From assembly GCA_030039825.1 (NCBI GenBank), contig JASHUV010000073.1, positions 1-9,708 on the forward strand: DNA of 9,708 bases, given 5' to 3'. The notes beneath the pieces were generated by a model. That model did no database searches. It had not been told where the DNA came from and saw only the letters and a program-made list of their open reading frames with translations. This DNA comes from Thermoplasmata archaeon (GTDB lineage: Archaea; Thermoplasmatota; Thermoplasmata; Lutacidiplasmatales; UBA184). Both the position numbers and the translations under genes were made by a program. Shown here in pieces: positions 1,437 to 9,202 of the stretch (position 1 is the stretch's first letter; each line of letters begins with the position of its first letter).

Positions 1437-2336
1437 CTAGAGGAACTCCTCGAGCAGCGCGTCCCGGCCCTTCAGACCGGCCGGTTGCCGCGCGAGGGGT
1501 CCGGCGGCGAGGACCTCCTCGAGGTCCTCGTACGTCGGCTTCTCGGTCCGGTAGAACAGCCCGATCGGGATCTTGTCGCCCCACTCGAGCGCCCGCTCGA
1601 ACGCGAGCGCCCGGTTGGTGGGGTCGTGGCCGGAGCTCTCGAGCTTGTAGACGCGCTGCCGGAAGTAGTCGAAGGTGTTGATCTTGTTGTACGTCACGCA
1701 GGGCGAGAGCGCGTCGATGAACGCGAAGCCCTTGTGGGCGATCCCGTTCTGGATGAGGTCGGCCATGTGCTTGACGTCACCGGAGAACCCGCGCGCGACG
1801 TAGGTCGCGCCGCTCGCGATGGCGAGCGCGACCGGCTCGATCGGGTTCTCGATGACGCCCGCCGGGGTCGACTTCGTCTTCTGGCCCATCATCGACGTCG
1901 GGCTCGCCTGGCCGGTCGTGAGCCCGTAGATCTGGTTGTCCATCGTGACGTAGGTCAGATCGACGGTCCGCCGCATCGTGTGGACGAAGTGGCCGCAGCC
2001 GATCCCGAAGCCGTCCCCGTCGCCGCCGGTGGCGATGACGGTGAGCTCGTGGTTCGCCCAGCGGATCCCCTCGGCGACCGGGAGCGCGCGGCCGTGGATG
2101 GCGTGGAAGCCGTAGCTCGAGAGGAAGTGAGGGAGGTTCGAGGAGCAGCCGATCCCCGACACCACGGCGACGTTGTGGGAGGGGATCTTGAGCTTCTTCA
2201 CGGCCATCTCGATGGCGGCGAGGACGCTGAAGTCCCCGCATCCCGGGCACCAGGTCGGCTTCGTGTCGGACTTCCCCACCATCGGCAGGGCGGCCCCCGT
2301 CGTCGCGGGGACGCTCACCGCGCTAGTTCCGGCCAT
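1437..2336 (-). CDS. korB: 2-oxoacid:ferredoxin oxidoreductase, beta subunit
   Basis: A 299-residue protein that binds thiamine pyrophosphate and the [4Fe-4S] cluster in CoA-dependent oxidative decarboxylation of 2-oxoacids, with ferredoxin as electron acceptor; cytoplasmic. Visible motifs: WCPGCG at 29-34, GIGCSS at 61-66, the TPP/Mg motif GGDGDGFGIGCGHF at 104-117, DNQIYGLTTGQASPT at 133-147, and SPCVTYN at 211-217. Cys30, Cys33, Cys64 and Cys213 match the four cluster ligands of archaeal two-subunit enzymes. Length is normal for the family (about 290-310). The start at 2336 is fixed by a near-perfect Shine-Dalgarno site (2341-2350), and the gene overlaps the end of korA by 14 bases, so the two subunits are translationally coupled. 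2-oxoglutarate is a plausible substrate, but archaeal enzymes of this type often also accept pyruvate or other 2-oxoacids, so the Kor name is provisional. Confidence 0.95.
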   Translation of the reverse strand: MAGTSAVSVPATTGAALPMVGKSDTKPTWCPGCGDFSVLAAIEMAVKKLKIPSHNVAVVSGIGCSSNLPHFLSSYGFHAIHGRALPVAEGIRWANHELTVIATGGDGDGFGIGCGHFVHTMRRTVDLTYVTMDNQIYGLTTGQASPTSMMGQKTKSTPAGVIENPIEPVALAIASGATYVARGFSGDVKHMADLIQNGIAHKGFAFIDALSPCVTYNKINTFDYFRQRVYKLESSGHDPTNRALAFERALEWGDKIPIGLFYRTEKPTYEDLEEVLAAGPLARQPAGLKGRDALLEEFL

Positions 2337-4077
2337 GACCGATCACCTCCGTCGCCTTGCGGACGATCTCCATCGGATAGAACGGCTCGCCGTCGTATTT
2401 CAAGAGCCGGTGCGGGACCTCGAACCCGGTCTCGGCGCGGATGAGGCGGCCGAGCTGACCGGAGAAGTTCGCCTCGACGAGGATCGGCCGCTCCGCGGCC
2501 CGGAGGTGCGTCGCGACCGATTCGCGGTGGAGCGGGTAGACCGTCGGGACCGCGAGGAGGTTCGAGCGGACCCCGCGGGCCTCGAGGATCCGGCGCGCGT
2601 CGCGGACGGCGCCGACCGTCGATCCCCAGGCCACGAACGTCACCGGCGCCGTCGCGGGCCCCTCGAGCACCGGGGGCACGGCGTCCTTCAGGAGACCGTC
2701 GAGCTTGCGCATGCGCTTGTCCATCATCTTCGTGCGCTCGGCGACCCAGATCGGTACCCCCGCCTTCACGTCCGAGATGAGGTGGCCCACCTCGTCGTGC
2801 TCGTCGGAGCCGGCGATATAGTTGAGGCCGGGCTGGCCGGGGATCGACCTCGGTGAGACGCCCGACGGGGTGTAACGGTAGCGCTTGAACTCGTGACCGT
2901 TCGGCTCCGCGGTCGCGACCGGCGGGACCTCGAGGTCGAGGTGGAGCTCGGAGCGGTCGATCGTCCCGAAGCTCTCGGAGAGGTGGAGGTCGCTCGCGAC
3001 CAGCACGGGGGTCTGGTAGCGCTCCGCGAGCTCGAACGCGCGGACGGTGAGGTGGTAGGCCTCGAGGGGGTTCGAGGGCGCGAGGATCGCCCGGGGGAAC
3101 TCGCCCTGACCGGCGCCGAGCATGAGGTTGAGATCGCCCTGCTCGGTCTTCGTCGGGAGACCGGTCGACGGACCCGAGCGCTGGGACTCGACGACGACGA
3201 GGGGGGTCTCCGTCATGCCGGCCATCCCGAGGGCCTCGACCATGAGCGCGAAGCCGCCCCCGCTCGTGGCGGTCATCGCGCGCACGCCTCCGAAGGAGGC
3301 GCCGATCGCCATGTTGATCGCCGCGAGCTCGTCCTCGGCCTGCTTGACGACGACGCCGATCTCGCGCGAATGCGCCGCCATCCAGTGCATGATCGACGAG
3401 GCCGGGGTCATCGGGTACTGGGCGAGGAACTTGCAGCCGGCCGCGGCCGCGCCGAGGCCGATCGCCTGGTTGCCCGTCAGGAGGAGCTTCGGTTCCCCCG
3501 AGGGGCGGACCGCGTTCGAGTTCGGGCTCGTGTGCTCCTGGGCGAACTTGTAGCCGTCGGCCGAGGCACCGAGGTTCCAGTCGACGACCTCCCCCTTCTT
3601 CCTGCCGAAGGAGTCGGCGAGGGTCTTCTGGAGGAGCTCGAGCGGGATGCCGGCGAGGAACGCCGTCGCACCGAGACCGGCCGCGTTCTGGAGGATCGAC
3701 TGGCTCGTGTACTTCCGGGCGATCGCGAGGGTCGGCACCGCGAGCGCGCTCGCCCCCACCGGGACGCGCGCCGGGTCGATCGTGAACTTCTCCGGATCGT
3801 ACACCACGGTCCCTCCCGCGGCGAGGCCCGGGAGGTGGATGTCGACGGTCTGGGTGTCGAGGGCATACAGGACATCGCAGGTGTCGCCCTGGGAGGGCAC
3901 GGGGTCGGGGGAGGCCCGGGCGAGGAACCAGACGTGTCCGCCCCGGATCACGGACTGGTACGCGTTCAGACCGAAGAGATGCAGGCCCATGCGGGTGAAC
4001 GCTTTCGAGAGGGTCTCTCCCACCGACGCGATCCCGTCGCCGGCCTGCCCGCCGGCCACGATCGTGATCTCTTTCAC
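2323..4077 (-). CDS. korA: 2-oxoacid:ferredoxin oxidoreductase, fused gamma-alpha subunit
   Basis: A 584-residue partner of KorB. Residues about 1-185 form the gamma domain (GGQAGDGI at 9-16, then YQSVIRGGHVWFLARAS). Residues about 195-430 form the alpha pyrimidine-binding domain with YPMTPASS at 221-228, conserved QAEDELAAINMAIGASFGG at 246-264, and SQRSGPSTGLPTKTEQGDL at 298-316. The remainder is the C-terminal transketolase-like domain. This gamma-alpha fusion, with no separate ferredoxin-like delta subunit nearby, is the two-subunit architecture known from Sulfolobus, haloarchaea and some actinobacteria. I chose the GTG at 4077 because it starts directly at the first beta-strand (VKEITIVAGGQAGDG). 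An upstream in-frame ATG at 4224 would add 49 Arg/Pro-rich residues and would place the TATA box inside the gene. GGAG lies 10 bases before the GTG. It overlaps korB by 14 bases. Confidence 0.93.
   Translation of the reverse strand: MKEITIVAGGQAGDGIASVGETLSKAFTRMGLHLFGLNAYQSVIRGGHVWFLARASPDPVPSQGDTCDVLYALDTQTVDIHLPGLAAGGTVVYDPEKFTIDPARVPVGASALAVPTLAIARKYTSQSILQNAAGLGATAFLAGIPLELLQKTLADSFGRKKGEVVDWNLGASADGYKFAQEHTSPNSNAVRPSGEPKLLLTGNQAIGLGAAAAGCKFLAQYPMTPASSIMHWMAAHSREIGVVVKQAEDELAAINMAIGASFGGVRAMTATSGGGFALMVEALGMAGMTETPLVVVESQRSGPSTGLPTKTEQGDLNLMLGAGQGEFPRAILAPSNPLEAYHLTVRAFELAERYQTPVLVASDLHLSESFGTIDRSELHLDLEVPPVATAEPNGHEFKRYRYTPSGVSPRSIPGQPGLNYIAGSDEHDEVGHLISDVKAGVPIWVAERTKMMDKRMRKLDGLLKDAVPPVLEGPATAPVTFVAWGSTVGAVRDARRILEARGVRSNLLAVPTVYPLHRESVATHLRAAERPILVEANFSGQLGRLIRAETGFEVPHRLLKYDGEPFYPMEIVRKATEVIGHGRN
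2341..2350 (-). promoter_or_regulatory. Strong Shine-Dalgarno site of korB
   Basis: On the minus strand the bases read GGAGGTGATC, ending four bases before the korB ATG at 2336. This is an exact complement of the usual 16S rRNA 3' tail. It lies inside the end of korA, as expected for an internal operon gene. It shows that this organism uses SD-led initiation inside operons, in contrast with the apparently leaderless starts seen elsewhere in the window. Confidence 0.8.
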
Positions 4078-4111
4078 GGACCGGCGACTCCGGCGCGTTT
4101 CAGCGGCGGCC

Positions 4112-4120
4112 CATATTAAG
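4112..4120 (-). promoter_or_regulatory. TATA box of the korA-korB-SDR operon
   Basis: On the minus strand the bases read CTTAATATG, the only AT-rich patch in GC-rich surroundings. Its centre is about 39 bases before the GTG at 4077, so a start site about 25-27 bases downstream would fall near 4090. That gives a short leader of about 13 bases. The position supports the GTG start over the upstream ATG at 4224. Confidence 0.6.
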
Positions 4121-4232
4121 CGGTTGGGTCGTGCGGGAGGGTCCGGTCTTCCGACGGCGTCCCGGGCCCGTCCGGGTCGGCGTCGAGATGGCACGGGCCA
4201 TGCGGGAGCGTTCCGACGCATCATGGACCATG

Positions 4233-4240
4233 CTAAACCT
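4233..4240 (+). promoter_or_regulatory. Possible weak TATA element for the winged-helix gene
   Basis: CTAAACCT in a relatively AT-richer stretch, about 45 bases before the ATG at 4281. It would place a start site near 4262 and leave a leader of about 19 bases containing GAGG (4272-4275). A perfect 5-base inverted repeat CATGG-A-CCATG (4222-4232) sits directly upstream and could be an operator, though a repeat this short can occur by chance. The match to the archaeal TATA consensus is poor. Confidence 0.3.
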
Positions 4241-4280
4241 TGAAGTAACCGCGTGCGCCTCCCGCCCGGCCGAGGAACCG

Positions 4281-4673
4281 ATGTCGGACCGCGATGCCTC
4301 CCTGGCCGAGGAGATGGATGACGAATCGAAGGTCGACGGCGCCCAGCTCGTCGACCGGATCGTGGAGGAGCTCGACCTCCTCTCGCGGAACGTCGACATC
4401 CTCCAGCGGGTCTCCGGCGGCGCCCCGCTCGGGATCATCCGATTGAGCGACATGATGCAGTTGCCGATCCACAAGGTCCGATACTCCCTCCACCTCCTGG
4501 AGCGGGAGGGAGTCATACAGCCGTCGGCGAACGGCGCCGTCGTCACGGACCGCGCCAAGGACTTCTGGGACGACCTCGACAAGGGGCTCGACCGGATGAC
4601 CGAATCGATCCAGATCCTCAAGGAACGCGCGGCGGAGCGCAAGGCGCCCGCGTCGAGCCGGAAAGGCTATTAG
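4281..4673 (+). CDS. Small winged-helix DNA-binding protein (archaeal predicted transcriptional regulator)
   Basis: A 130-residue acidic protein. Residues about 21-45 form an amphipathic helix (VDRIVEELDLLSRNVDILQRV). Residues about 47-92 are a winged helix-turn-helix: IIRLSDMMQLP as positioning helix and turn, IHKVRYSLHLLEREGVI as recognition helix, and GAVVTDRA as wing. Residues 93-120 form a long helix (FWDDLDKGLDRMTESIQILKERA), probably for dimerisation. The tail is basic. There are no ligand-binding domain or metal-binding cysteines. The ATG at 4281 is preferred over the longer frame opening at GTG 4131 because GAGG lies five bases upstream and the extra N-terminal 50 residues are Arg-rich and featureless. 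It is divergent from korA across a shared 200-base region, so it may regulate that operon or itself; its true targets are unknown. Confidence 0.75.
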   Translation: MSDRDASLAEEMDDESKVDGAQLVDRIVEELDLLSRNVDILQRVSGGAPLGIIRLSDMMQLPIHKVRYSLHLLEREGVIQPSANGAVVTDRAKDFWDDLDKGLDRMTESIQILKERAAERKAPASSRKGY

Positions 4674-4699: not shown

Positions 4700-4802
4700 G
4701 CCGCCGTAGCTCAGCGGCAGAGCGTCCGGCTGTTAACCGGACGGTCAGCGGTTCAAAAGCTTCGGGCGGGATCGACCGGGGCCGGAACTCCGCTCGGCGG
4801 CG
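4700..4802 (+). tRNA. tRNA-Asn (GTT) with a T-loop intron
   Basis: Acceptor strand GCCGCCG (4700-4706); D-stem GCTC/GAGC (4709-4712 and 4720-4723); anticodon stem TCCGG/CCGGA around loop CTGTTAA with anticodon GTT at 4732-4734; variable loop CGGTC. The 5' half of the T-stem is AGCGG (4747-4751), followed by TTCAAA. Read straight on, the T-stem and acceptor cannot close. The matching 3' strands, CCGCT (4790-4794) and CGGCGGC (4795-4801), occur 31 bases late, followed by discriminator G4802. All five T-stem pairs and all seven acceptor pairs are then Watson-Crick. The mature tRNA is 72 nt with no encoded CCA. A weak TATA-like CTATTA (4668-4673, the end of the preceding gene) lies about 30 bases upstream; co-transcription with that gene is also possible. 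Confidence 0.88.
4758..4788 (+). other. tRNA intron (31 nt) between T-loop positions 59 and 60
   Basis: Removing these bases gives the standard T-loop TTCAAAT, the same as in the neighbouring tRNA. The precursor folds as bulge-helix-bulge. The outer helix is the T-stem AGCGG/CCGCT. The central helix is TTCA (4752-4755) with CGGA (4783-4786): U-A, U-G, C-G and one A-C mismatch. Each side has a three-base bulge, AAA (4756-4758) and ACT (4787-4789). The inner helix is 4759-4765 with 4776-4782: seven pairs, two of them G-U. Cutting after the second base of each bulge yields exactly these ends. Position 59/60 is one of the non-canonical archaeal intron sites. The ends are inferred from folding, not from RNA. 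Confidence 0.8.
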
Positions 4803-4829: not shown

Positions 4830-4905
4830 GGGCCCGTAGCTCAGCCCGGACTAGAGCGTCCGGCTCATAACCGGTCGATCGACGGTTCAAATCCGTCCGG
4901 GCCCA
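4830..4905 (+). tRNA. tRNA with CAT anticodon (elongator Met or Ile2)
   Basis: A complete 76-nt cloverleaf without intron. Acceptor GGGCCCG/CGGGCCC; D-stem GCTC/GAGC; anticodon stem TCCGG/CCGGT around CTCATAA with CAT at 4866-4868; T-stem GACGG/CCGTC with loop TTCAAAT; discriminator A4905; no encoded CCA. G1-C72 and the absence of three consecutive G-C pairs of initiator type in the anticodon stem argue against the initiator tRNA. Elongator Met and Ile2 (modified C34) cannot be separated confidently by eye. Base 27-43 is a T-T mismatch at the top of the anticodon stem. It lies 27 bases after tRNA-Asn, probably in the same transcript, as no promoter is visible between them. Confidence 0.9.
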
Positions 4906-5067: not shown

Positions 5068-6201
5068 ATGAGCGGAGTGTCAGAGACGATCCGGGCGGGT
5101 GCGCCGCCCCGGTCCCCCATCCCTCGCCGACTTCAGAAGATGGGCGCCGTGACGGTCGGCGTGTCGCTGCCGAGAGACTGGGTCGGTCAGCGCGGGCTCA
5201 CCCCCGGCCAGTCGGTCTACCTGCGCTCCCTGCCCGACGGGTCCCTCCTGGTCCGGGACAGCGAGCGGGGCCGCGGGCCGTCGAGCGCCATCGTGGACGT
5301 GGATCCCTCGGCTCCGGGCGAGCACCTGTTCCGGCGGCTGATCGGCGCGTACCTCGCCGGCGCGACCGAGTTCGTCCTCCGGGAGCCCGGCGGCCTTTCG
5401 GCTCCGACGCGGGCCGTGGCGCGTTCCTTCGCTCGGCGAACGGGACATACGGAGAGCGTGGCCGAGGAGGGCACGACCCTCCTCCTCCGCGACGTCTCGA
5501 TGGGGAGCGGCCTCCCCGCCCCCCGCCTCCTCCAGAGGATGTTCCAGATCGTCTACGACCTGCATGTCGATGCGGGTCGCTCCTGGACGCGCGCCCCGGC
5601 ATCGCCCCCGGCCTCCCTCGCCGCCCGCGACGATGAGGTCGACCGGTGCGCGTGGCAGATCGAGCGGGCGGTCCGGCTCGGGGCCTCGGAGACGAGCTCC
5701 CGGCCCGGCGCCGATCTCGGGGACGCGTTCCGGTTCCTTCTCTGGGCCCGGGACCTCGAGCGCCTCGGCGACCACGCCGTGCTCATCGGGGAGCACGGGA
5801 GCCGGCTCGCCGAATCCGGCCTTCCCGAACCGATCCGTCGGATGCTCTCGACCTACCACGGCCAGGCGCTCGAGCACCTCAAGGCCGCCCACGCCGTGGC
5901 GAGCGAACCGGATGCGCAGCGCGCCAACAGCCTGCTCGATGTCGGCGAGGCGCTTCAGGAGACCGGGACCGCGCTCGCGGATCGGATCGTCCTGCGCGAT
6001 TCGACGGAGCGACTTCCGCCGACGTCGATCCGCTCCCTGGGCCTGATCCTTCAGTCGATCGACCGGACCACCGGCTACGCCCAGAACCTCGCCGAGATCG
6101 GGCTCGATCGGGACCTCGATCGGATCACCCGGCCGAGCGCGGTGCCCGTCATCCGCGACCTGGCCGGGGCGCCGCGGCTCGTCCTGCCCCCTCGCCCGTA
6201 G
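5068..6201 (+). CDS. Phosphate-signalling regulator, AbrB-PhoU fusion
   Basis: A 377-residue protein. Residues about 19-64 match a SpoVT/AbrB swapped-hairpin DNA-binding domain (RRLQKMGAVTVGVSLPRDWV, then GLTPGQSVYLRSLPDGSLLV). A linker domain follows (about 85-150), then PhoU-type helical bundles from about 152. The metal-binding signature RDLERLGDHAVLIGE at 228-242 is intact. The second expected copy, IDRTTGYAQNLAEI at 331-344, has lost the GD pair. This AbrB-PhoU layout is typical of archaea. PhoU proteins act in the cytoplasm, reporting on Pst transporter activity; the AbrB domain suggests this one also binds DNA. It sits directly upstream of pstSCA on the same strand but has its own promoter. 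GAGGG is only two bases from the ATG, too close for a good ribosome site, so a leaderless start is more likely. Confidence 0.88.
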   Translation: MSGVSETIRAGAPPRSPIPRRLQKMGAVTVGVSLPRDWVGQRGLTPGQSVYLRSLPDGSLLVRDSERGRGPSSAIVDVDPSAPGEHLFRRLIGAYLAGATEFVLREPGGLSAPTRAVARSFARRTGHTESVAEEGTTLLLRDVSMGSGLPAPRLLQRMFQIVYDLHVDAGRSWTRAPASPPASLAARDDEVDRCAWQIERAVRLGASETSSRPGADLGDAFRFLLWARDLERLGDHAVLIGEHGSRLAESGLPEPIRRMLSTYHGQALEHLKAAHAVASEPDAQRANSLLDVGEALQETGTALADRIVLRDSTERLPPTSIRSLGLILQSIDRTTGYAQNLAEIGLDRDLDRITRPSAVPVIRDLAGAPRLVLPPRP

Positions 6202-6233
6202 GGGCGTCCTCGCGGGGCCGATGGTGAGCGCCC

Positions 6234-6247
6234 GCCCGGGCCCGGGC
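6234..6247. repeat. 14-base GC palindrome
   Basis: GCCCGGGCCCGGGC is its own reverse complement, 33 bases after the AbrB-PhoU stop codon. It may form part of the 3' end structure of that transcript. In such GC-rich DNA a chance origin is possible. Confidence 0.3.
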
Positions 6248-6274
6248 ACTCCCTCCGTGCGGCCGGCGGGTCGG

Positions 6275-6299
6275 CGCGATCGGGCCTCTCCCGATCGCG
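6275..6299 (+). repeat. Perfect 10-bp hairpin between phoU and pst
   Basis: CGCGATCGGG (6275-6284) and CCCGATCGCG (6290-6299) pair perfectly over ten bases around the loop CCTCT. It lies 73 bases downstream of the AbrB-PhoU stop and 120 bases before the pst TATA box. No T-run follows, so it is not a typical terminator. It could stabilise or delimit the 3' end of the upstream transcript, or be a protein-binding site. Confidence 0.55.
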
Positions 6300-6336
6300 G
6301 GCGATCCTCCGCGTCCTGGACCGGGGCCGATCGAGG

Positions 6337-6375
6337 CCTATGGCCCCCACCCTGAGACCCGGCCTCGGGCATAGG
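6337..6375 (+). repeat. Two-part stem-loop just upstream of the pst promoter
   Basis: The outer stem CCTATG (6337-6342) pairs with CATAGG (6370-6375). The inner stem CCTGAG (6351-6356) pairs with CTCGGG (6364-6369, one G-U) around the loop ACCCGGC, leaving eight unpaired bases on the 5' side. AT-rich DNA follows at once. It could be the 3'-end structure of the AbrB-PhoU transcript or a DNA site for a regulator. Confidence 0.4.
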
Positions 6376-6425
6376 TCTATACTGGACTATTGTTAGAACT
6401 ATACTCTACAGCCGCTTCCTATATA
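6376..6425 (+). promoter_or_regulatory. AT-rich promoter of the pst operon with repeated elements
   Basis: The TATA box TATATA (6420-6425) is preceded by an AT-rich stretch with a direct repeat CTATACT at 6377-6383 and 6399-6405, offset by 22 bases (about two helical turns). GTTAGAACTATA (6392-6403) is the reverse complement of TATAGTTCTAAC, close to the TATATTCTAAC seen in the AbrB-PhoU promoter. The predicted start site is near 6447-6450, about 170 bases before pstS. The repeats are candidate binding sites for a phosphate-responsive regulator. Confidence 0.6.
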
Positions 6426-6449
6426 CCGAAGGCCGAAGTCCTCGGGCCG

Positions 6450-6623
6450 ATGTCCAACGCGCAGCCGGGGGCCGGCCGGACCAGGTCCGACGAACCCGCC
6501 GCTCGGAACGGGCCGGGGATTCCCCGGGCCCTCGCGCGTGGGGCGCCCCGTCCGGGGCGACCCGGGACGTCGTCCGACGTCTCCTCGAATCGACCGAAGA
6601 GGGGAGGAACAAGAAAGGTATGA
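6450..6623 (+). CDS. Possible 57-residue leader ORF, stop-start coupled to pstS
   Basis: The ATG at 6450 lies where transcription from the TATA box at 6420 is predicted to begin, at exactly the TATA-to-ATG spacing (30 bases) seen for the AbrB-PhoU gene. The frame stays open to a TGA (6621-6623) that overlaps the pstS ATG as ATGA, the usual sign of coupled translation. The predicted product is basic, rich in Arg, Gly, Pro and Ser, and looks disordered; I recognise no domain. Third positions become AT-richer near the end, and the composition is little different from what GC-rich noncoding DNA would give. It may be a genuine small protein, a regulatory leader or simply an untranslated leader. 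PstS itself is in another frame. Confidence 0.3.
   Translation: MSNAQPGAGRTRSDEPAARNGPGIPRALARGAPRPGRPGTSSDVSSNRPKRGGTRKV
6602..6607 (+). promoter_or_regulatory. SD-like site upstream of pstS
   Basis: GGGAGG lies 12 bases before the pstS ATG at 6620, rather far for optimal use. AAAGG sits directly next to the ATG and is too close. The start at 6620 is still preferred because it precedes the membrane anchor by a short hydrophilic tail. Confidence 0.4.
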
Positions 6624-7975
6624 GCGGAGCGAACCCATCGAGCACGCCCTCGTCGACCACGTCGTCCGGTGACGACGACGCGTACCTGAAGAAGTCCCAG
6701 GGCCGCGGCCGGAACACGGTGATCATCGCCGTCCTGTTGGTGATCATCATCGCGCTCGCCGGCGTCGCGGGCGCGTACGCCACCGGGCTGATCGGGAAGA
6801 AGAGCACGACATCGACGAGCACCGGGACCGGCAACGGTAACAACAAGACGACCCCGACCGAACCGACGTGGTACCCCGAATGCGGGGGCGCCATCACCGC
6901 CGGCGGGTCGACCTTCGTCTACCCGCTCCAGGCGCTCTGGACCACGGACTTCGCCGGTCAGAAGTGCAACACGACCGGCGCCAACGGCGCGTCGGCCACC
7001 GACATCAACTACCAGGCGGTCGGCAGCGGCACCGGCGTCACGGACCTGACCGACGGGCTCTTCGCCTTCGGCGCGTCCGACGCCCCGCTCACGACGACCC
7101 AGACGAACGCGCTCAAGTCCCCGGTCGTGACGATGCCCGACTCCGCCGGCGCCGTGACCGTGATCTACAACCTGAAGGTCACGAACACCTCCACGGGGAA
7201 GACCACCCCGCTCCGCCTGACGGGCGCGGTCATCGAGCAGATCTACAACGGGACGATCACGAACTGGAACGTCACGCAGATCACGTCGCTCAACCCAGGC
7301 ACGACGGTCCCGTCGCAGACGATCACGGTGGAGCACCGCTCCGACGGCAGCGGCACGTCGTTCGCCTTCACGACGTTCCTGTCCGACGCGAGCCCGTACT
7401 GGGCCTCGCACGTCGGCGCCTCGACGACCCCCAACTGGCCGGTCGGCATCGGGGACCACGGGAGCGAGGGCGTCGCCGGCGCGGTCGCGACGACCACGGG
7501 ATCGATCGGCTACGACGAGCTCAACTACGCCGAGGAAGAGGGAACGGCGCTCGAGATCGCCGAGGTCCAGAACCCCGCGGGGAACTACATTCTCCCCTCG
7601 GTCGCGGACACGGCCTACGCCGTCAACAACGCCTCGAACATCCCGAGCCCGACGGGGAGCTGGCAGAACTACTCCCTCGAGAACGGCGCGGGAGCCGGGA
7701 CCTACCCGATCGTCACGCTGACCTACCTGATGATCTACACGGACATCGGGAAGGCCCCGGCGTACAGCGGGTCGTACACCCAGGCCGAGGCGACGAGCAT
7801 CGTCGACTACCTGTGGTGGATCGTCCACCAGGGGCAGAACGACTCGGCCGGTCTCTTCTACGTGCCGCTGCCCGCGGTGATCATCGCGGAGGATGTGGCG
7901 GCGATCGGGGACATCCAGTTCAACGGAGCGACGCTGACCTCGCACGCGCCCGCGGGCTGGCAGTCGAGCGACTAA
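6620..7975 (+). CDS. pstS: Phosphate ABC transporter, membrane-anchored phosphate-binding protein
   Basis: A 451-residue extracytoplasmic receptor that captures phosphate and hands it to PstCA. A hydrophilic N-tail (1-32, Ser/Thr/Asp-rich, then KKSQGRGRN) precedes one membrane helix at about 34-57 (VIIAVLLVIIIALAGVAGAYA). A Ser/Thr/Asn/Gly-rich linker spans about 61-82. The PstS domain runs from about 89: AGGSTFVYPL (94-103), AVGSGTGVTDL and FGASDAPL (133-157), TMPDSAGAVTVIYN (171-184), IYNGTITNWN (208-217), VEHRSDGSGTS (237-247), GSEGVAG (281-287). Thr98, Ser153, Asp154, Arg240, Ser244 and Thr246 are the likely phosphate contacts by family comparison. There is no lipobox Cys, so the helix probably serves as an uncleaved anchor, common in archaea. 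Cys88 and Cys116 could form a disulfide. It is first of the main pst genes; pstC follows after 33 bases. Confidence 0.95.
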   Translation: MSGANPSSTPSSTTSSGDDDAYLKKSQGRGRNTVIIAVLLVIIIALAGVAGAYATGLIGKKSTTSTSTGTGNGNNKTTPTEPTWYPECGGAITAGGSTFVYPLQALWTTDFAGQKCNTTGANGASATDINYQAVGSGTGVTDLTDGLFAFGASDAPLTTTQTNALKSPVVTMPDSAGAVTVIYNLKVTNTSTGKTTPLRLTGAVIEQIYNGTITNWNVTQITSLNPGTTVPSQTITVEHRSDGSGTSFAFTTFLSDASPYWASHVGASTTPNWPVGIGDHGSEGVAGAVATTTGSIGYDELNYAEEEGTALEIAEVQNPAGNYILPSVADTAYAVNNASNIPSPTGSWQNYSLENGAGAGTYPIVTLTYLMIYTDIGKAPAYSGSYTQAEATSIVDYLWWIVHQGQNDSAGLFYVPLPAVIIAEDVAAIGDIQFNGATLTSHAPAGWQSSD

Positions 7976-8008
7976 GAAACCGAACGGGGTGAACCGGGCC
8001 GACCTCGG

Positions 8009-9202
8009 ATGGCCAACCCTTCCGGTCCGGCGGCCGGGGGCCGGGGCGGCGCGCGCGAGCGCGTCGCCGCGGTCCTCGGCGGCCGGGCCTTTTTCCGCAT
8101 CTGGCTCCTGGCCGCGATCGCCTCCCTCGGCGCCTTCCTCCTCGCGTGGGCGACGAGCGAGGTCGCCACCGGCGCGGCCCGCGCGTCGGCGGGTCGGCTC
8201 GCGGGCGACCTCCTCCTGCTGCTGGTGCTCCTCGGCCTCGTCCTGCTGCTCGCCCGGTGGACCCGGCTCGCGGACCGCTTCTTCGCGGCCCTCACCGGCG
8301 CCGCCACGCTCGCGCTCCTCGCGGTCTTCGTCATCGCGGTCGTGGTCCTCTACGAGACGAGCGAACCGACCATCCAGCAGTACGGGCTCGGGTTCTTCAC
8401 CGGCCAGACCTGGGCGCCGTTCCCTCCCCCCGGGCTCCCGGTCGTCTTCAGCGGGGCACCGGCGATCTACGGAACGCTCTTCGTGGCGGGTCTCGCGATG
8501 CTCCTCGGCGTGCCGTTGAGCCTCGGGATCGCGATGTTCCTGACGGAGCTCTCGCCCCGGTTCCTCCGGAGCCCGCTCGCCTTCCTCGTCGAGCTCCTGG
8601 CGGCGATCCCGTCGGTCGTCTACGGGATCTGGGGGCTCTTGATCCTCGTCCCGTACATGCGCACGACGGTCAATCCGGCGCTCGCCTCGACGCTCGGCCG
8701 GGTCCCCGGGATCGGGCCGTTCTTCACGCCGACGACCGAGGGGGCGAGCGGCTTCACCTACCTGACCGCCGGGGTGATCCTAGCGATCATGATCGTGCCG
8801 ACCGTTTCGGCGGTCATGCGGGAGGCGTTCCAGGCCGTCCCCCAGGACCAGCGCGAGGCGGCGCTCAGCCTCGGCGCCACCCGCTGGGAGACGACCCGTC
8901 TCTCGGTCCTCCCGTACTCCCGCCGGGGCATCTTCGGCGCGATCATCCTCGGCCTCGGGCGGGCGATCGGTGAGACGATCGCGGTCGTCCTGGTCATCGG
9001 GAACACCTTCATCGTCGGGCCCTCCCTCCTCTCCCCCGGCACGACGATCGCCTCGTGGATCGCGAACGAGTGGGGCGAGGCGTTCGGGGCCCAGCGGGAC
9101 GCGCTCCTCGAGCTCGGCCTCTTCCTCCTCGTCCTCAGCGTGATCATCAACATCGGGGCGAGGTTCCTCGTCCGCCGGTCCTCCTTCTCGACGGGGGCCT
9201 GA
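8009..9202 (+). CDS. pstC: Phosphate ABC transporter permease PstC
   Basis: A 397-residue inner permease subunit. The core resembles PstC: a first helix at about 92-114; the outside segment TIQQYGLGFFTGQTWAP; helices near 152-176, 188-214, 251-271, 309-333 and 366-386; and the ATPase-contact (EAA) loop EAALSLGATRWETTRLSVLPYSRRGIFGA at 283-311, followed by GRAIGETIAV. Two further hydrophobic segments (about 31-49 and 67-83) lie before the core, giving around eight membrane spans rather than six. The ATG at 8009 has no clear SD, and no better in-frame start is obvious; translation may depend on coupling from pstS. The stop codon shares one base with the pstA start (TGATG at 9200-9204), so the permease subunits are coupled. 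Confidence 0.95.
   Translation: MANPSGPAAGGRGGARERVAAVLGGRAFFRIWLLAAIASLGAFLLAWATSEVATGAARASAGRLAGDLLLLLVLLGLVLLLARWTRLADRFFAALTGAATLALLAVFVIAVVVLYETSEPTIQQYGLGFFTGQTWAPFPPPGLPVVFSGAPAIYGTLFVAGLAMLLGVPLSLGIAMFLTELSPRFLRSPLAFLVELLAAIPSVVYGIWGLLILVPYMRTTVNPALASTLGRVPGIGPFFTPTTEGASGFTYLTAGVILAIMIVPTVSAVMREAFQAVPQDQREAALSLGATRWETTRLSVLPYSRRGIFGAIILGLGRAIGETIAVVLVIGNTFIVGPSLLSPGTTIASWIANEWGEAFGAQRDALLELGLFLLVLSVIINIGARFLVRRSSFSTGA

Follow-up and report, generated by a model that had tools for sequence, protein, structure and literature searches.

The window analysed in this study, i.e., the whole stretch of 9,708 nucleotides of a Thermoplasmata archaeon, carries a tRNA-Asn(GTT) gene that can be read directly on the forward strand as a 103-base stretch (4700-4802) with a 31-base insert at position 59/60 of the T loop. 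The acceptor stem is formed by seven of seven Watson-Crick pairs between GCCGCCG (4700-4706) and CGGCGGC (4795-4801) and the T stem by five of five between AGCGG and CCGCT (4790-4794); when the insert is taken out, the T loop becomes TTCAAAT and a normal tRNA with a length of 72 bases remains. Both edges of the insert can be arranged in a bulge-helix-bulge (BHB) motif, in which a central helix of TTCA and CGGA with the pairs T-A, T.G and C-G and an A.C mismatch lies between two bulges of three bases, and an inner stem within the insert pairs at seven of seven positions, two of them as G.U (Table 1). The BHB of the window is near-strict. The preliminary description had claimed a 59/60 BHB intron in the tRNA-Asn of a high-GC archaeon, and every detail of its pairs, bulges and 72-nt product matched on re-reading. 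The splice sites were placed between the second and the third base of each bulge by analogy with the relevant part of PMC12397907. Model R1 matches 4700-4802 with its positions 1-104, and the window was among the sequences from which this model was built.

Table 1. Features of the tRNA-Asn(GTT) gene, in positions of the window; ^ marks a predicted splice site.
Feature	Position	Strand	Basis
5' exon of tRNA-Asn(GTT), positions 1-59	4700..4757	+	sequence, cloverleaf parse, match of model R1
5' strand of the T stem, AGCGG; outer helix of the BHB	4747..4751	+	5/5 pairs with 4790-4794; paired in 46/46 distinct sequences
TTCA, positions 54-57, exon strand of the central helix	4752..4755	+	3/4 pairs with 4783-4786
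5' bulge AA^A, predicted 5' splice site 4757/4758	4756..4758	+	AA^N in 45/46 distinct sequences
59/60 intron, 31 bases	4758..4788	+	28-35 bases at the equivalent place in 50/50 tRNA-Asn genes
Inner stem, 5' strand	4759..4765	+	7/7 pairs, covariation
Inner stem, 3' strand	4776..4782	+	7/7 pairs, covariation
CGGA, intron strand of the central helix	4783..4786	+	pairing with 4752-4755, 3/4
3' bulge AC^T, predicted 3' splice site 4788/4789	4787..4789	+	AN^Y in 46/46 distinct sequences
3' exon, positions 60-73: 3' strands of the T stem and acceptor, discriminator G	4789..4802	+	sequence

The gene was expected to be mishandled by gene finders, which was borne out. ARAGORN called a tRNA-Asn, but wrongly placed its 3' end at 4773, and the Rfam model matched with 35.8 bits and with the T arm deleted. 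Among 40 other loci with an intron in the T loop, ARAGORN reported no gene at 37. A second tRNA with the anticodon CAT (4830-4905) is contiguous and was named Met by ARAGORN; given its GGGCCCG acceptor and its likeness to the Ile(GAT) gene, it may be a tRNA-Ile2(CAT). A similar CAT tRNA with a 59/60 intron was seen in the families f25 and f28. The neighbouring genes, which are given here jointly for both sides (1440-4224 on the reverse strand and 5068-9199 on the forward strand), encode 2-oxoacid ferredoxin oxidoreductase subunits (PF02775, PF12367, PF01855, PF01558) as well as PhoU-domain, phosphate-binding-type and permease proteins (PF01895, PF12849, PF00528). The frame of 180 aa that adjoins the tRNA (4131-4670) had no Pfam match.

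In 2000 plain shuffles of the letters of the window intron, a central helix and inner stem that were as good or better occurred at a frequency of 0.0005. An attempt to prove the BHB thermodynamically failed; the minimum free energy of the T arm, folded alone, was unremarkable (z -0.88), the central helix was left open in that fold, and the fold predicted for the whole precursor did not correspond to a cloverleaf. The gene was compared among 61 genomes of the family (that of the window and 60 drawn ones), which were searched with its DNA, and it was read in the window and 49 relatives. Each of the 50 tRNA-Asn genes that were read has an insert at the 59/60 position; they come from six of the family's seven genera, and five of their genomes consist of 5 to 9 contigs. 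Two further introns, one read (G009) and one recognised by a full-length model match of 105 bases (G015), extend this observation to all 52 genomes with a match. The 46 distinct introns were 28-35 bases long, and their median identity was 0.588 compared with 0.944 for the exons (1035 pairs). Across the 46 distinct sequences, the cloverleaf and BHB positions were paired in 90.7% of the alignment cells, with the anticodon-stem pair 27-43 being unpaired in 44 of them; despite the divergence of the introns, the central helix and inner stem were paired in 83.5% of the cells. The covariation score was 0.529 compared with a mean of 0.204 after shuffling (none of 500 shuffles reached it) and at most 0.200 when the register was slid. 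The number of pairs with a change on both sides (10) showed no excess over the shuffled mean of 9.6.

The register of the central helix was specific as well. It was paired in 83.7% of the cells at the predicted register and in at most 62.5% at any slid one, and all four pairs were formed in 21 of the 46 distinct introns at the predicted junction, as opposed to none or one at ten other offsets; three pairs were formed in 20 and two in five. The unpaired positions were mostly 57 (13/46) and 56 (12/46). Where position 57 of the tRNA-Asn is G, the intron has C in 28 of 31 cases, and where it is A, the intron has G (seven), T (five) or C (three). The insert thus has the two 3-nt bulges, the 4-bp helix and the structure kept under sequence change that characterise the archaeal BHB tRNA introns. 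On these grounds, we consider the predicted BHB to be beyond chance, its support being comparative rather than thermodynamic.

The tRNA-Asn is not the only tRNA in this genome that is interrupted at this place. In the genome of the window, 59/60 introns were found in six of 18 tRNA matches (Asn, Gly TCC, Arg TCT, Gln CTG, Glu CTC and Ser CGA) and 37/38 introns in two tRNAs (Tyr and Leu TAA). In G029, a relative that belongs to the window's genus, there were 59/60 introns in 11 of 38 tRNA matches: Ala GGC, Asp, Glu CTC, Gly TCC, Asn, Gln CTG, Arg TCG, Arg TCT, Ser CGA, Ser GCT and Ser GGA. This relative has 37/38 introns in three tRNAs (Tyr, Leu TAA and Met) and probable D-arm introns in two (L258 and L300, one with the anticodon CAT and one Arg), which were misread by the cloverleaf parser; a further match, L253, gave no cloverleaf parse. 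The 59/60 position is the commonest intron site in both genomes.

The host is a close relative of Ca. Lutacidiplasma (Thermoplasmatota), which places it in the order that PMC9287336, in the part describing it, names Lutacidiplasmatales. In a sample of the class, 200 genomes were searched and 43 loci were read, 40 of which were picked for a long match and three, all tRNA-Asn, for a short one; since the 40 were chosen by match length, they are not a random sample. All 40 had a 59/60 intron; they belong to 14 families, with 12 from the window's own, and by eye the introns lie chiefly in tRNA-Lys, tRNA-Ala and a CAT tRNA. The remaining 28 T-loop introns, from the 13 other families, include 23 with all four central pairs and 21 with Watson-Crick pairs throughout. 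The tRNA-Asn was intact in each of the three other families in which it was read (L145-L147), and the intron is therefore dispensable in the class. A strict 59/60 pattern, which covers the TTCG/CGAA form only, matched in at least 138 of the 200 genomes compared with 14 for the reversed control; these counts are of pattern matches, chance matches included. It had no match in the window's own genome, because the introns there are of other forms. In several families there are tRNA-Lys genes (L127, L132, L137, L138, L149, L150 and L151) in which, by eye, a D-arm intron accompanies the one at 59/60, and a tRNA-Asn of the same order (L136, 51-166, in G182) has, by eye, a 37/38 intron together with a 14-base 59/60 intron. 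It had been suggested beforehand that such introns are known from archaea, which is correct, and that they occur mostly in Thermoproteota and some small-genome lineages; with 14 families of Thermoplasmata, they are not confined to those.

Regarding the enzyme, the EndA of the window genome is encoded in one open frame of 354 aa with a tandem N-C-N-C arrangement (two stretches each of PF02778 and PF01974), which corresponds to the two fused N-C repeats of the alpha'2 type. EndA was found in 59 of the 61 family genomes, and 58 of these have two PF01974 domains, the exception being G052 with one. The residues Y284, H299 and K330 of the C-terminal repeat were invariant in 41 aligned proteins and form the Tyr/His/Lys set, whose catalytic role was assigned by motif position from the relevant parts of PMC6379350 and PMC12397907. 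The best sequence relative was the EndA of Methanopyrus (112.8 bits), followed by that of Archaeoglobus, and the monomer model (mean pLDDT 95.9) had the same order of nearest folds (Methanopyrus EndA, PDB 5x89, TMq 0.85, then Archaeoglobus). A CSL or ASL, i.e., a lysine-containing loop of 11-18 residues adjacent to the active site, was looked for in this EndA and was not found. The turn from the YG/FG to the next LxLS strand has six residues in all 30 family loci. Of the 29 class loci in which the catalytic motif is present, 28 have an equally short turn (26 distinct proteins, with three distinct ones read by eye) and L294 is divergent; L293 gave no motif. Wild-type Archaeoglobus EndA has the same turn length, and its CSL chimera (3p1y) is about ten residues longer; in the model of the window EndA, the strands 212-214 and 217-220 are predicted at the place of the CSL/ASL. 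The expectation that a 59/60 intron needs an endonuclease of broad specificity, which this host was thought likely to have, was not supported for an enzyme of the known sort, as a tandem N-C-N-C protein without CSL or ASL is the type that reviews call narrow.

Based on these results, it is very probable that 4700-4802 is the tRNA-Asn(GTT) gene of this genome and that its 59/60 BHB intron is cut by the genome's own tandem-repeat EndA, with RtcB joining the halves. EndA would cleave between the second and the third base of each bulge, and RtcB would ligate the halves into a 72-nt tRNA that is presumably used. RtcB was found in 59 of the 61 family genomes, that of the window genome being a piece of 107 aa. 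A loop-less EndA with two repeats could be able to cut these 59/60 introns because most of the BHBs there are strict or only one pair short. In Haloferax, the BHBs that EndA cleaves include those of an rRNA precursor and of a 5' UTR (described in part of PMC7714728), and a homodimeric EndA, that of Ferroplasma, was able to cleave a minimal BHB in vitro at 30 C (described in part of PMC8707768). Enzymes of this kind are hence not bound to the anticodon loop, so that the position as such is no barrier; the real puzzle is the mismatched central helices.

These mismatches are also where an alternative has to be weighed, namely that the splicing is real and proceeds through a relaxed specificity that is conferred by some other feature of EndA, e.g., a full-length N-terminal repeat as in Methanopyrus, rather than through BHBs that are strict enough. 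We regard this as possible, though less likely than not. Within the family, central helices often fall short of strict, and both sequence and model place the window EndA nearest to that of Methanopyrus, which is described as 'constrained broad' without a CSL or ASL in the relevant part of PMC6379350. A comparison between families points in the same direction. Among the matches listed, the strict 59/60 pattern was absent from the 32 genomes of the families f15, f19 and f27, as opposed to its presence in at least 138 of the 168 others, and the reversed control matched in five of those 32. The EndA shows a single scored PF01974 domain in 30 of the 32 genomes, compared with two domains in 154 of the 155 other genomes in which EndA was matched. 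However, this contrast is only a lead, because it may go back to a single evolutionary event or a small number of them and because the pattern, being limited to the TTCG/CGAA form, misses the TTCA form. Moreover, the two exceptions, G072 and G178, have two PF01974 domains and still no match, and the specificity of these enzymes is a predicted one.

It is most improbable that the mature tRNA keeps the insert as an extension of its T arm. Its inner stem, with seven pairs in the window, would be stable enough for such an arm, and both the excision and the spliced form are predicted; the strongest conservation, however, lies in the BHB geometry at the junction (the bulges AA^N and AN^Y together with the register-specific 4-bp helix), for which a permanent arm would have no use. 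The bases of the T loop normally meet the D loop, and the central helix would tie them up. The presence of both EndA and RtcB also argues for removal.

As regards the number of copies, a pattern for the anticodon arm of tRNA-Asn had exactly one match in 52 of the 61 family genomes and two in none. There was no match in the remaining nine, two of which are more than 90% complete, and a relaxed pattern gave nothing credible in them. A tRNA-Asn hidden by an additional 37/38 intron was considered for these nine and rejected, as there was one relaxed match (G059, L305) at which ARAGORN finds no tRNA, and the reversed control also gave one. Among named genomes, an exact pattern that demands the intron found 82 stretches, 79 of which belong to entries named Thermoplasmata archaeon, one to Candidatus Lutacidiplasma silvani and two to 'bacterium'. 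In two MAGs of this collection, the tRNA-Asn with its intron was found twice. One of these pairs is a single gene that recurs where two contig ends overlap (197 bases, identical). In the other MAG, YP4.bin112, the stretches (L192 and L201) differ, with an identity of 0.83 over the 778 surrounding bases and the intron in both, which indicates either two copies that arose by duplication or two strains in one bin. The preliminary description had named a second intact tRNA-Asn(GTT), together with a lack of spliced RNA from this locus, as the finding that would make the gene a disrupted copy, and no second tRNA-Asn emerged among the 61 family genomes. The window assembly is 64.4% complete in 213 contigs (the tRNA lies on C155 of G000), from which a second copy could be absent, and YP4.bin112 has two differing copies; nevertheless, a disrupted, non-functional gene or an assembly error, with the real tRNA-Asn missing from the assembly, is hardly credible, because the insert site is shared by all of the genes read, also in the genomes of few contigs, two matches were never found and the insert shows compensating changes. 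The comparative data make a pseudogene with an unconstrained insert very unlikely, and there is a high probability that the insert is a functional intron.

As to why such introns recur at this position, the T loop itself may offer an answer. The introns that were read share the same exon bases, with TTCR (54-57) in the central helix and A58-A59 opening the 5' bulge, and exceptions are rare (AT in L036, AG in L136 and TCCG in L151). The 17 T-loop introns found in the genome of the window and in G029, which represent 11 kinds of anticodon, without exception use the TTCR and AA of the T loop; at least three of the four central pairs are formed in each of the 17 and all four in six. In L151 (51-158, in G079 of family f11), position 55 is C instead of the normal T, and the intron has G opposite to it, which gives TCCG/CGGA. 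We propose that the conserved TTCRAA of the T loop constitutes half of a BHB in every isotype, with TTCR providing one side of the central helix and A58-A59 supplying the 5' bulge with its first two bases. An intron would then only have to contribute a stem and, just ahead of its final two bases, a complementary stretch (such as YGRA). Because the T loop would supply half of the BHB, any isotype could host a 59/60 intron, and such introns could thereby become established in many isotypes. It is feasible that this half-motif favoured their spread, and it suggests why 59/60 recurs as an intron position.

On a broader scale, one may tentatively suppose, as a real possibility, that in Thermoplasmatota the half-motif of the T loop made 59/60 the main intron site, which was filled isotype by isotype, and that the fused EndA, without CSL, ASL or ESL, cuts despite A.G or C.C mismatches in the central helix. 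If true, this would represent a further, loop-independent route to a broad recognition of splice sites and would break the rule that a single-protein EndA goes with introns at 37/38 only. According to the relevant parts of reviews (PMC4090602, PMC4033280, PMC6379350), a single-protein EndA goes with introns in the anticodon loop, and unusual positions go with enzymes that bear a loop. As many families combine T-loop introns with a loop-less fused EndA, this rule of co-evolution becomes testable in one enzyme assay. In practical terms, tools without a model for such introns miss tRNA genes of these genomes; the intron model of tRNAscan-SE 2.0 was trained, as stated in a part of its description, on Crenarchaeota and Euryarchaeota. 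In the parts of the literature on archaeal tRNA introns that were covered, we found no T-loop or other non-canonical tRNA introns named for Thermoplasmata. No word beginning with 'intron' occurs in the main text of the Lutacidiplasmatales paper, and the 'intron' mentioned once in the paper on Methanomassiliicoccales refers to one of group II. The 59/60 introns of Thermoplasmata may already sit unremarked in tRNA databases or in the supplement of tRNAscan-SE 2.0.

The published systems with which these findings can be compared are described below from the relevant parts of the sources. The alpha'2 EndA is called narrow (PMC6379350), Euryarchaeota with an alpha4 or alpha2 EndA are described as having introns at the canonical position only (PMC4090602), and the alpha2-type enzyme of Haloferax is said to need hBHBh' strictly (PMC7714728). 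Three thermophilic euryarchaeal methanogens were also listed with non-canonical introns in 2011 (PMC3218864). Among archaea with an alpha2 EndA, Korarchaeum is presented as the sole one to have non-canonical introns (PMC4033280); it likewise combines these with a single fused EndA, but its enzyme is said to bear the loop that is absent here. The EndA of Methanopyrus kandleri (5x89) is free of CSL/ASL like that of the window (PMC6379350), although it consists of two separate subunits in nature, the crystal being that of a subunit fusion, whereas the window EndA is one frame of 354 aa. In Thermofilum pendens, permuted tRNAs have the same 59/60 junction in the T loop (PMC3218864), with the halves being reversed there and colinear here. 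The known archaeal 59/60 introns (PMC4090602) share the position, the BHB rule and the normal T arm after removal; in contrast, those are found with (alpha-beta)2 or epsilon-2 enzymes, and the introns described here are found in Thermoplasmatota, at the commonest site of the genome and with a fused EndA that lacks CSL/ASL. The kind of intron is known, and it is the clade, the dominance of a single site and the enzyme that differ from the published descriptions covered here.
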